From positions 1 to 64,000 of the forward strand of contig JABGOQ010000051.1 of assembly GCA_018645405.1 (NCBI GenBank): 64,000 nt of DNA, given 5' to 3'. The DNA comes from Anaerolineae bacterium (GTDB taxonomy: Bacteria > Chloroflexota > Anaerolineae > Anaerolineales > Villigracilaceae). The notes under the pieces were generated by a model, which saw nothing but the letters and a program-made list of their open reading frames with translations, was not told where the DNA came from and made no database searches. Positions 4,531-39,410 of this stretch are shown here, in pieces. Made by a program: the position numbers and the translations under genes. The first letter of the stretch is position 1; each line of letters opens with the position of its first letter.

Positions 4531-5595
4531 TTAACAAATCCTCGGCAACAACTCCCCTGCGGGCAGATCAACTACTCGTGAGCCACCAATAGCCGTTTTT
4601 GCTACCACACGTCCTGCATGGCTTTCCACCACGCTACCGATAATCGCTGCATCTTTGCCATATTCATTTGCCTGCATCACATCGAGAACTTCATCTGCTA
4701 CATCGGGCGCAACGATGGCAACCAATTTGCCTTCATTGGCAATATAAAAAGGGTCTAAACCGAGCATTTCGCAGGCGGCATTCACAGCGGTATCAACTGG
4801 CACTTTCGTCTCTTCAAACTCAATCCCCACTTTGGATACATCTGCCAATTCATTTAACACGGCTGAAAGCCCGCCGCGCGTTGCATCGCGCAGGCAGTGG
4901 ATTTTTTTTGTTACTTCGAGCATTTCTGCAATCATTCCATGCAGGGGTGCGGTATCACTCATAATTTGACTTTCAAATTCCAGCCCTTCGCGTTTTGACA
5001 TGATCGCCATACCGTGATCGCCCATCGTGCCGCTGACGATGATCACGTCATTGGGGCGGGCGTTTTTGGCCGCAATATCTATGCCTTTGGGAATCATTCC
5101 AAAACCAGATGTATTGATGAATATCCCGTCTCCGTGACCTTTATTGACTACTTTTGTATCCCCTGTCACGATTTGTACCCCCGCTTTTTTCGCTGCGCGC
5201 GCCATCGAAGTTACTACTGCGCCCAGCGTCTCCATTTCTAAGCCTTCTTCGAGAATGAATCCTACTGAGAGATAGCGTGGTTTTGCTCCACTCATGGCGA
5301 TATCGTTGACTGTGCCGTTCACTGCCAAATCGCCAATATCGCCGCCGGGGAAGATGATCGGGCTAACGACAAAAGAATCGGTGCTGAAAGCCAAGCGTCC
5401 ACCTGCGTTTAACGCACCAATGTCTAAGGCCGTCGAGTCGCCCATTTGCGCAAGCAAGTCGTTATGCAAGAGCGGCGCGAAGAGATGTCCAATTAAATCG
5501 TTCATCATCTTGCCGCCCGCACCGTGCCCCATCACAATTCGCGGGTAATTTTTTAGCGGGATGGGGCAAGTCCATCCATCAAAAATAGCATCCAT
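4531..5595 (-). CDS. hypE: Hydrogenase maturation carbamoyl dehydratase HypE
   Basis: 354 residues, the usual HypE length. HypE dehydrates the S-carbamoyl group on its own C-terminal cysteine to a thiocyanate, which supplies CN ligands to the iron of [NiFe]-hydrogenases. The protein ends in 'LLPRIC', the diagnostic HypE tail with the modified last cysteine. ATP-binding motifs of the AIR synthase / PurM family are present: 'GHGAGGKMM', 'GDSTALDIG', 'TGDTKVV', 'GTMGDHG'. The related SelD lacks the PRIC tail, so HypE is the better call. No other hyp or hydrogenase genes lie in the window, so its partners are elsewhere. No convincing Shine-Dalgarno sequence precedes the ATG. Confidence 0.96.
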   Translation of the reverse strand: MDAIFDGWTCPIPLKNYPRIVMGHGAGGKMMNDLIGHLFAPLLHNDLLAQMGDSTALDIGALNAGGRLAFSTDSFVVSPIIFPGGDIGDLAVNGTVNDIAMSGAKPRYLSVGFILEEGLEMETLGAVVTSMARAAKKAGVQIVTGDTKVVNKGHGDGIFINTSGFGMIPKGIDIAAKNARPNDVIIVSGTMGDHGMAIMSKREGLEFESQIMSDTAPLHGMIAEMLEVTKKIHCLRDATRGGLSAVLNELADVSKVGIEFEETKVPVDTAVNAACEMLGLDPFYIANEGKLVAIVAPDVADEVLDVMQANEYGKDAAIIGSVVESHAGRVVAKTAIGGSRVVDLPAGELLPRIC

Positions 5596-35973: not shown

Positions 35974-37164
35974 ATGACAACTCCTATAGAAAAAATGCAC
36001 AAAGGTGCCCGCAAGCAACGTCTGCGGAATGCACGCCAAAAAACTGGCAATAAAAAAACGATCAAGAAACCTCGCCGAAAAAACTGGATTTTAGATTCAT
36101 CCGATGTTTGGGATGATGACAATTTTCAGACCAATGAACGGATTCTCCCTCGTGGAGAGCATGAGCGTCGCCGAAATATCGAAGAACTTGCCTTTAGCGA
36201 AACTCCTACTCAACCTGAACCTGCGCTCGCTATGGATGCGGATTCTACCAGTACAGGCTTGGTCGTTGAAGTCAGCTCCGGGCTTTGTCGCGTTGAAATT
36301 GACGATGACATCCTTGTATGTAGCCTGCGTGGCAATCTCAAAAAACAAGAAACTGGCTACTCAAACCTTGTTGCAGTGGGTGACCTCGTAACCATCACCC
36401 GCGAGGACAATGAAAAAGGCGTCGTCGAAAGCGTACTTCCTCGTCGCAGTGTACTCGCTCGCTCTCATGGAAGCGTGCTAAGCCTCCGGCAGATTATTGT
36501 TGCCAACGTAGACCAGGCACTCATCGTGACCTCATGGCGAGAGCCACATATCTGGCCCGAACTTATTGACCGCTATTTAATTGCAGCACAACGCAATAAT
36601 CTCGAAGCGATCATCTGCATCAACAAAATTGATTTAATTGAAGACCAAGAAACCTTCGATACAATAGTCCAAGCCTATGCAAAGTTGGGATACAAATTTC
36701 TCCTCACCAGCACCATCACAGGAGAAGGGATTGATGAACTTCGCACCATTTTCAGCGAAAGCACCACTGTATTAGCCGGACTCTCTGGTGTAGGAAAATC
36801 ATCATTGCTCACAGCAGTCCAGCCCAACTTGGATTTGCGAACAGGAAGCGTCGCGGAACGCGGTCTTTTCCGTGGACAAGGAAAGCATACAACCACCCAA
36901 TCCTCGTTGTGGAAATTGGAAAATGGTGGCATCGTAATAGATACCCCCGGGATCCGCGACTTTGGAATTGCAGGAATCTCTCAAATTGAATTAGCAAGTT
37001 GGTATCCAGAAATGGTCGCTCTCTCAGGAAAGTGCCGTTACAGAGATTGCACACATATTAACGAACTAGATTGTGCGATCAAATCCGCTATTGAAACCGG
37101 AAAGATATCTCAATTACGGTATAAAAACTATGCTGCGATTCGAGAAAGCCTGCCTGCATCATGA
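35974..37164 (+). CDS. rsgA: Ribosome small-subunit-dependent GTPase A
   Basis: 396 residues, somewhat longer than usual because of a basic N-terminal tail of ~90 residues ('GARKQRLRNARQKTGNKKTI', then 'KKPRRKNW'). An OB fold follows (~95-160). The circularly permuted GTPase shows the order G4 'CINKIDL', G5-like region, G1 'GLSGVGKSSL', G3 'DTPGIRDFG'. The C-terminal zinc site is 'CRYRDCTHINELDC'. RsgA checks late 30S subunit maturation. AGAGAAGAAAAT precedes the start. Two hairpins in front suggest controlled read-through. Confidence 0.96.
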   Translation: MTTPIEKMHKGARKQRLRNARQKTGNKKTIKKPRRKNWILDSSDVWDDDNFQTNERILPRGEHERRRNIEELAFSETPTQPEPALAMDADSTSTGLVVEVSSGLCRVEIDDDILVCSLRGNLKKQETGYSNLVAVGDLVTITREDNEKGVVESVLPRRSVLARSHGSVLSLRQIIVANVDQALIVTSWREPHIWPELIDRYLIAAQRNNLEAIICINKIDLIEDQETFDTIVQAYAKLGYKFLLTSTITGEGIDELRTIFSESTTVLAGLSGVGKSSLLTAVQPNLDLRTGSVAERGLFRGQGKHTTTQSSLWKLENGGIVIDTPGIRDFGIAGISQIELASWYPEMVALSGKCRYRDCTHINELDCAIKSAIETGKISQLRYKNYAAIRESLPAS

Positions 37165-37234: not shown

Positions 37235-37561
37235 TTATTCTTTCTTTTTTTCGCTTTTGCTTTCTTTTTTAGAAGATACGGCATCTTTCTTATCAGTTGT
37301 TTTCTTTTCTGTCTTCTCACCCTTTTCTTTTTTTGTACTAGCTTCTTCTTTATCATGTTTTCGGGCATCTTTTCCCGATGGAGAACGGTTATCTGTCGCG
37401 TAAAATCCTGAACCTTTAAAGACAATCCCTACAGGGCGATAGACGCGATGCAGGCTTTTTTCTTCACATTCGGGGCATATCGTTTTTGTCGGGTCGTTAA
37501 AACCTTCTTTTTCATCAAATTGGATACCGCAATTATCGCAACGGTAAGTATATACAGGCAT
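37235..37561 (-). CDS. FmdB-family zinc ribbon protein
   Basis: 108 residues. The N-terminal zinc ribbon has 'YRCDNCGIQFDEKEGFND' and 'CPECEEKSLHRVYRPVGIVFKG', the standard FmdB/putative regulatory zinc ribbon pattern. The last ~50 residues are almost only Lys, Glu, Ser and Asp ('KGEKTEKKTTDKKDAVSSKK'), disordered and common in this family. A zinc-binding regulatory or scaffold role is presumed. AAGGAAAAGAGTT precedes the ATG. Confidence 0.88.
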   Translation of the reverse strand: MPVYTYRCDNCGIQFDEKEGFNDPTKTICPECEEKSLHRVYRPVGIVFKGSGFYATDNRSPSGKDARKHDKEEASTKKEKGEKTEKKTTDKKDAVSSKKESKSEKKKE

Positions 37562-37687
37562 AACTCTTTTCCTTAATAAGTCTCAATAGCGGCGTGATTA
37601 TAGCGCGCTTATATATAGGTGACAAGACTATAAAGAGTGCGTGTTATAATTTTCTAATACTTCAAACTAGAGCCTAGGAGAAAGAAA

Positions 37688-37924
37688 ATGCTCAAAATTA
37701 GTATCGTTTATTGCGCAGTCTGACACTATACAGACAGAGCCGTCGGTCTGATGGCTGAATTGACTAGGGCTTTTGAATATGAGATCGAAGAGATTTCTCT
37801 AATTCCCTCGGACGGAGGGAAGTATGAAATTACGGTAAATGGAGATTTGGTCTACTCCAAATTAAAAACAAATCGACATGCAGAAGCAGGCGAGGTTTTA
37901 GCTCTGGTTCGCAAACTTATTTAA
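37688..37924 (+). CDS. Rdx/SelW-family selenoprotein (in-frame UGA = Sec12)
   Basis: 78 residues if the TGA at 37721-37723 is read as selenocysteine. AGGAG lies 8 bases before the ATG. The protein starts 'MLKISIVYCAV', then Sec, giving the redox motif C9-A-V-U12 exactly where Rdx/SelW proteins have CXXC or CXXU. It continues 'HYTDRAVGLMAELTRAFEYE', 'ISLIPSDGGKYEITVNG', 'LVYSKLKTNRHAEAGEV' and ends at TAA, all matching the family order. The frame after the TGA is intact, which argues against a pseudogene. SelW-type proteins are small thioredoxin-fold oxidoreductases. Ten bases separate it from trpS. Confidence 0.87.
37721..37755 (+). promoter_or_regulatory. UGA codon and candidate bacterial SECIS hairpin
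   Basis: Seven bases after the TGA, CAGAC (37731-37735) can pair with GTCTG (37746-37750) around a 10-base loop AGAGCCGTCG. Position just downstream of the UGA fits a bacterial SelB-binding hairpin, but the stem is short and I could not extend it convincingly. Confidence 0.5.
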
Positions 37925-37934
37925 CGAGGTTTTC

Positions 37935-38924
37935 ATGGTAAAGAAGAAAGGTCGGGTATTTTCCGGCGCACGTCCAACAGGCAACCAACATCTGGGAAAT
38001 TATCTCGGAGCAATCAAGAATTACGTCGCATTACAAGATGAATACGAAGCTCTATACTGCATCGTAGATATTCATGCTTTAACGACAGTAGAAACAACCA
38101 AAGATATTAAGCAAAACACCTACGATATGGCTCTCGATTGGCTCGCAGCAGGATTACGCCCTGAAGAGAGCATTATCTTTGTACAATCCCATGTGCCGCA
38201 AGTAACGGAATTACATCTCTACCTTTCGATGGTCACACAATTGGGAAAGTTGACTGACCTCCCCACTTTCAAAGAAAAGATTCGTGAGAACCCCAAGAAC
38301 GTGAATTATGGTCTTGTTGGCTATCCCGTTTTGATGACAGCCGATATTGTTCTCTACAAAGCTGGGGTTGTCCCCGTCGGTGTGGACCAAGCTCCACATA
38401 TCGAGTTTGCACGTGAAATTGTGCGCTCATTTAATTATCGCTTCAACACGAAAGCATTGATTGAACCACAAATGAAAGCGACCACCGTCCCCAAGGTTTT
38501 GGGGTTAGATGGCAAAAAGAAAATGGGCAAAAGCCTAAACAATCATATCGAATTGGCTGCTTCCCCAGAAGCAACACAAAAACGTGTTTTACAAATGGTT
38601 ACAGACCCCAATCGGATGCGTCTTTCTGATCCGGGCAACCCCGATATTTGCAACGTCTTCACGATGCACAATATTTTCTCATCTCCAGAAGAAGTGGCTG
38701 AAATCAACACCGAATGCCGCCGTGCGGGGATTGGGTGTGTAGACTGCAAAAAACGCTTTGCCGCCAACCTAAACAAAAATCTCGAACCCTTCCGCACCAA
38801 ACGTGCCGAACTTGACAAGAATCCTGACGCTGTTTGGGATATTCTCCACGATGGTGCAAAACGCGCTCGCAAAATCGCCGAAGAGACAATGGTTGAAGTT
38901 CGCGAAGCGATTCAATTACCCTGA
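37935..38924 (+). CDS. trpS: Tryptophanyl-tRNA synthetase
   Basis: 329 residues. Class I signature in 'SGARPTGNQHLGNYLGAIKN' (HIGH position reads HLGN) and KMSKS-like 'KKKMGKSLNNHIEL'. 'YPVLMTADIVLYKAGVVPVG' and 'DQAPHIEFAREI' line the tryptophan and ATP pocket. It charges tRNA-Trp in the cytoplasm; the tRNA-Trp gene is at 49784 in this window. The insertion 'CRRAGIGCVDCKKRFAANL' carries cysteines as in many bacterial TrpRS. GAGG precedes the start; it follows the selenoprotein gene closely. Confidence 0.97.
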   Translation: MVKKKGRVFSGARPTGNQHLGNYLGAIKNYVALQDEYEALYCIVDIHALTTVETTKDIKQNTYDMALDWLAAGLRPEESIIFVQSHVPQVTELHLYLSMVTQLGKLTDLPTFKEKIRENPKNVNYGLVGYPVLMTADIVLYKAGVVPVGVDQAPHIEFAREIVRSFNYRFNTKALIEPQMKATTVPKVLGLDGKKKMGKSLNNHIELAASPEATQKRVLQMVTDPNRMRLSDPGNPDICNVFTMHNIFSSPEEVAEINTECRRAGIGCVDCKKRFAANLNKNLEPFRTKRAELDKNPDAVWDILHDGAKRARKIAEETMVEVREAIQLP

Positions 38925-38972: not shown

Positions 38973-39410
38973 ATGCGCGCATTACTCCAAAGAGTTTCTC
39001 ACGGTAAAGTATCTGTAGCTGGCAAGTCCATCGCTGAAATCGGGCATGGACTTGTTATTCTTTTAGGTGTTGGCGAAGGGGATAGCAAAGCTGAGATTGA
39101 CTATCTCGTAAAGAAGATTGCCCAAATGCGCATCTTTGAAGATGAGCAAGGCAAGATGAATTTATCTGTATTAGATATTGGAGGCGAAGCAATTGTTGTT
39201 TCGCAATTTACGCTTTATGCCGATACGCACAAAGGTCGCCGCCCTTCCTTTATCCACGCTGCACCGCCGAAGATTGCCGAGCCGCTGGTGGAGCAATTTG
39301 TTGAGACACTGACTGCGCAAGGTCTAAAAACTCAGAGCGGGGAGTTTGGGGCAAATATGCTGGTTGAGATCGATAATGATGGTCCTGTCACAATTTGGTT
39401 AGAAAGGTAA
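38973..39410 (+). CDS. dtd: D-aminoacyl-tRNA deacylase
   Basis: 145 residues, typical length. 'MRALLQRVSHGKVSV' at the start, catalytic-site motif 'SQFTLYADTHKGRRPSF' and the cross-subunit motif 'EIDNDGPVTIWLE' near the end (NXGPV(T) type). The enzyme removes D-amino acids and glycine mischarged on tRNA. There is no strong ribosome site; the palindrome just upstream would be in the leader. Confidence 0.97.
   Translation: MRALLQRVSHGKVSVAGKSIAEIGHGLVILLGVGEGDSKAEIDYLVKKIAQMRIFEDEQGKMNLSVLDIGGEAIVVSQFTLYADTHKGRRPSFIHAAPPKIAEPLVEQFVETLTAQGLKTQSGEFGANMLVEIDNDGPVTIWLER

Follow-up and report, generated by a model that had tools for sequence, protein, structure and literature searches.

SelW-like selenoproteins with a CXXU motif and a bacterial SECIS element were described in 2005 from the Sargasso Sea, where they formed the most abundant selenoprotein family with 48 genes, and where the bacterial SECIS was found just downstream of the UGA with a G in its small apical loop (PMC1088965). 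In 2006 SelW-like genes were reported from bacterial genomes, with selenocysteine (Sec) proposed as the ancestral form (PMC1794560). Closer to the organism considered here, a selenocysteine elongation factor but no Sec-annotated (formate) dehydrogenase was noted in Anaerolinea thermophila UNI-1 and in a single cell from the Anaerolineales (PMC4959059).

Here we describe an Rdx/SelW-like gene with an in-frame UGA in an Anaerolineae bacterium (assembly GCA_018645405.1), located within a stretch of 64,000 nucleotides of contig JABGOQ010000051.1 that is referred to throughout as the window. The gene shares with the bacterial SelW-like proteins (PF10262, TIGR02174) the predicted fold family, length, CXXU motif and UGA at the second redox position, as well as a bacterial SECIS whose small apical loop contains a G, and there is no difference in kind. 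It therefore belongs to an already known selenoprotein family, and the finding, although correct, is ordinary in kind. What is new is the host, which belongs to an uncultured Chloroflexota genus of Anaerolineales type, a fixed Rdx-trpS gene order, and a shift in the register of the SECIS within the host family. The features of the locus are as follows:

37235..37561, - strand: FmdB-type zinc-ribbon gene, divergent, upstream of Rdx (named from sequence, not family search)
37676..37680, + strand: Shine-Dalgarno-like AGGAG, 7 nt 5' of the Rdx ATG (from sequence)
37688..37924, + strand: Rdx/SelW-like selenoprotein gene, 78 residues (family matches, conserved TGA, dN/dS, PDB relatives)
37721..37723, + strand: in-frame UGA, codon 12, predicted selenocysteine of the C-A-V-U motif (sequence and conservation in the order)
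37738..37756, + strand: SECIS stem-loop, AGCCGUC / loop GGUCU (37745-37749) / GAUGGCU, 7-bp stem (covariation, invariant loop G, synonymous constraint)
37935..38924, + strand: trpS-like gene, tryptophanyl-tRNA synthetase (named from sequence, not family search)
38973..39410, + strand: dtd-like gene, D-aminoacyl-tRNA deacylase type (named from sequence, not family search)

The reading frame opens with the ATG at 37688, continues for 66 codons beyond the UGA and closes with a TAA at 37922-37924, giving the translation MLKISIVYCAVUHYTDRAVGLMAELTRAFEYEIEEISLIPSDGGKYEITVNGDLVYSKLKTNRHAEAGEVLALVRKLI. The start, the UGA at codon 12, the 66 further codons and the CXXU motif all lie where the initial annotation had placed them. 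Family searches were performed with cysteine substituted for Sec, and matched the protein to Pfam Rdx (PF10262) over the full length of the model (E 3.6e-19, residues 3-76 on model positions 1-74 of 74) and to the NCBIfam model TIGR02174, CXXU_selWTH, at 54.7 bits against a cut-off of 34.2, bearing out the family that had been proposed from the letters alone. The score against NF041051, a Campylobacter-specific equivalog, was 74.5 and fell below its cut-off of 88. Solved Rdx/SelW chains were also matched by sequence, namely 2fa8 (6.2e-10), 2p0g (4e-8; titled 'Selenoprotein W-related protein') and 2npb ('Selenoprotein W'). The product is predicted to be a small protein of the thioredoxin-like type whose redox site reads C-A-V-U, and probably acts as a thiol/selenol oxidoreductase. 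The gene had been said to be missed by standard gene calling, which is true of a plain ORF caller, although NCBIfam has TIGR02174 as a dedicated CXXU model. Plain ORF calling loses short UGA genes, and counts of the Sec proteome in uncultured Chloroflexota may consequently be too low. A readthrough scan of the window, with extensions judged by eye, gave no further convincing candidate for a UGA gene.

Conservation of the UGA was assessed in 80 genomes, comprising our own and those of its genus, family and order. An Rdx match was found in 60 of these (own included), and every one of the 60 contains exactly one internal TGA, a uniformity that is far beyond chance. In a sample of the phylum, TGA is present in every Rdx match listed from the same order and class, and 44 stop-free matches (hand count) represent forms of the family elsewhere in the phylum. 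Loci from named Anaerolineales/Anaerolineae MAGs (L052-L057) show 68-84% identity and thereby locate the host taxonomically, and relatives on plasmid records are distant only, at less than 60%. For the codons after the UGA, comparison with L052 and L043 gave dN of 0.099 and 0.15 and dS of 0.89 and 0.96, respectively, with dS being saturated in several of the other comparisons. The resulting dN/dS of 0.11-0.16 indicates that the frame downstream of the UGA is translated and under purifying selection.

A hairpin just after the TGA had been noticed from the sequence, and comparison confirms it, with the element backed by covariation spanning 37738-37756 and starting 15 nt past the UGA. We used a gapless alignment of 33 sequences, most from the order and phylum, plus two further loci, one of them from the Pirellulaceae. 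Pairing holds in 96.4% of the cells of the five inner pairs, a percentage that is inflated by choosing the 33 rows among those showing this register. Double changes are less affected by that choice, and 25 cells of the inner pairs carry them, compared with 8.1 +/- 2.8 after shuffling (0 of 500 shuffles as high) and 0-2 when the pairing was slid. The loop G (column 26) is invariant across the 33 sequences, and synonymous identity among seven close relatives is 0.85 in the stem-loop codons versus 0.42-0.44 downstream. Single-sequence fold energy, measured against synonymous redraws, was nothing unusual for this element (P 0.13-0.29), and therefore its support rests on comparison; an Rfam scan of the locus returned no relevant match. 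On these comparative grounds, the hairpin is a real SECIS.

The initial annotation implied a full Sec machinery elsewhere in the genome. Much of this was located, including a tRNA-Sec at C183:6501-6593 (65.2 bits against a gathering threshold of 47; anticodon UCA; called SeC(tca) by ARAGORN), whose score is similar to the 63.0-70.5 bits of congeners, a full-length selA on contig C20 (547 bits) and selD at C128:18837-19901 (L085:1338-2402; 343 bits), but an intact selB was not found. The joint absence of selB and tRNA-Sec had been put forward as grounds against a selenoprotein; tRNA-Sec is present, here and in 64 of the 80 relatives. The selD gene is itself a UGA gene, with Sec codon 23 given as TGA in the motif CAGUASK, as it is in relatives; 30 genomes were searched for SelD, 26 had a match, and all 26 contain one TGA. 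Rdx and SelD are thus both UGA genes of one Sec system, SelD differing in that it belongs to another family, is part of the Sec machinery and has its Sec at codon 23. Near-universal in the sampled order, the two may be candidates for the genes served by the Sec elongation factor noted previously (PMC4959059). The window also contains a weak, stop-free match to the selD family at 4747-5535 (- strand; 42.4 bits, below cut-off), the product of which is probably a different member of the selD superfamily.

Taken as a whole, we are close to certain that this is a genuine Rdx/SelW selenoprotein gene in which UGA codon 12 is read as Sec by means of SelB and the hairpin. The gene, its conserved UGA, the constrained frame, the covarying SECIS and the genes for tRNA-Sec, SelA and SelD are all demonstrated in support of this reading, and we infer that Sec is actually inserted at codon 12. 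At the UGA of the Rdx mRNA, SelB would occupy the hairpin, which lies 15-34 nt downstream, and bring Sec-tRNA(Sec) to the ribosome. Selenocysteine would then be inserted in place of termination, the outcome being a small thioredoxin-like protein with the C-A-V-U redox site.

The state of selB bears most directly on this reading. No intact copy was found in the 208-contig, 96% complete assembly using TIGR00475 and a full-length SelB query from a congener, and the TIGR00475 matches obtained are other translational GTPases (EF-Tu, IF-2, TypA and LepA, named from sequence) and not SelB. Of the relatives searched, 41 of 47 have a SelB wing domain that scores above cut-off, as do all eight congeners. 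Besides such GTPases, the full-length query did, however, match through residues 598-633 at C102:26893-27000, in frame and with 53% identity. A weak SelB-wing hit on C102 was considered as noise, but this was rejected given the in-frame residues and flanks that match the selB-acyltransferase-SRAP arrangement seen in congener G003. Congeners have a coiled-coil gene, selB and an SRAP-type gene in that order, with G003 having an acyltransferase gene between selB and SRAP. The acyltransferase-SRAP stretch on C102 has 81% DNA identity to G003, and upstream of it are the last ~36-40 codons of selB, themselves preceded by a membrane-protein gene that reaches the contig end ~1 kb away. A single query for the coiled-coil gene returned nothing from the genome. 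The region is listed as:

C102:26893-27988 (L084:6894-7989), strand not given: selB 3' stub and acyltransferase-SRAP region (congener synteny and SelB match)

Over its 36 codons, a length that makes the estimate rough, the stub has a dN of 0.289 to G003 and 0.265 to a second congener, G002, which differ from each other by 0.083. The derived dN on its own branch is ~0.24, versus 0.05 and 0.03 on the two congener branches, indicating that the stub is a relic under relaxed selection and not a fresh assembly break. Own-branch dN is 0.072 for SelD, for which G003 and G002 differ by 0.075, and 0.015-0.069 for Rdx, varying with the triple used. By these estimates, the Sec-dependent genes stay constrained while the selB stub decays. 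We found no report in the literature of such a selB stub.

One explanation is that selB has truly been lost and that Rdx is a selenoprotein gene by descent, no longer read through, with the Rdx and SelD frames heading to decay. At the usual place of selB, as in G003, no more than the final ~36 codons of the gene remain, next to one for a membrane protein, the stub has the raised own-branch dN, and the coiled-coil gene is missing too from an assembly that is 96% complete. However, SelD and Rdx are constrained on their own branches, the tRNA-Sec scores within the congener range and selA is full length, and a second selB accounts better for a decaying stub alongside clean dependants. We consider such a loss very improbable. 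Even less probable, in our estimate, is that canonical selB has been lost and UGA is still used for Sec in both Rdx and SelD, in which case insertion would depend on a different or highly diverged factor. Most simply, we think, the unassembled few per cent of the genome contains a working selB, which is presumed to be there because Rdx and SelD remain constrained.

A sequencing or assembly error converting TGC or TGT into TGA, an alternative raised by the initial annotation and lent some plausibility by the Cys forms elsewhere in the phylum, can be set aside as having a negligible chance, since every relative in the order with an Rdx gene carries TGA in independent assemblies, and a SECIS follows it. 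A UGA read in another way, through near-cognate suppression to Trp or Cys or general reassignment, is just as implausible: our analysis found nothing in its favor, tRNA-Sec is present, the hairpin covaries, and the neighboring rsgA (ending at 37164) and trpS (ending at 38924) both terminate at TGA, indicating that the genetic code of the genome is unchanged.

Although the SECIS is maintained, its position is not fixed. The host genus uses the register described above, as do almost all loci from outside the host family. In the other genera of the family, the stem is missing at the columns of 37738-37756, and a 6-bp stem, CCGGGC/GCCUGG with a loop of CGUGA or CGUGG, is found instead, 4 nt closer to the UGA. 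Loci with the shifted element are L024-L026, L028, L031-L038, L040, L042, L044, L045, L048, L051 and L057, of which L031 is from another family; L039 fits neither register perfectly. The second loop base is G in both registers, and the protein stretch beneath them is nearly identical (RAVGLM versus RAVSLA). Our search of the literature on the topic found no report of a 4-nt SECIS register shift within the host family. A UGA element displaced by 4 nt within one bacterial family while the protein is unchanged provides a small natural experiment in SECIS-SelB geometry and, along with the selB stub, is a part of this work that a specialist may wish to follow.

The trpS-like gene starts 10 nt past the Rdx stop and the two are probably co-transcribed; nearly all of the order-level loci that were tested have a trpS homologue next to Rdx, such that the Rdx-trpS order is kept across the order. 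In many relatives the dtd-like gene is found downstream of trpS and the FmdB-type gene occupies the same position. The TrpS encoded beside Rdx has only ~36% identity to that of several close relatives (L043, L050, L052, L054 and L056), compared with 67-92% to most others, and from these identities trpS seems to have been swapped in place for a different type.
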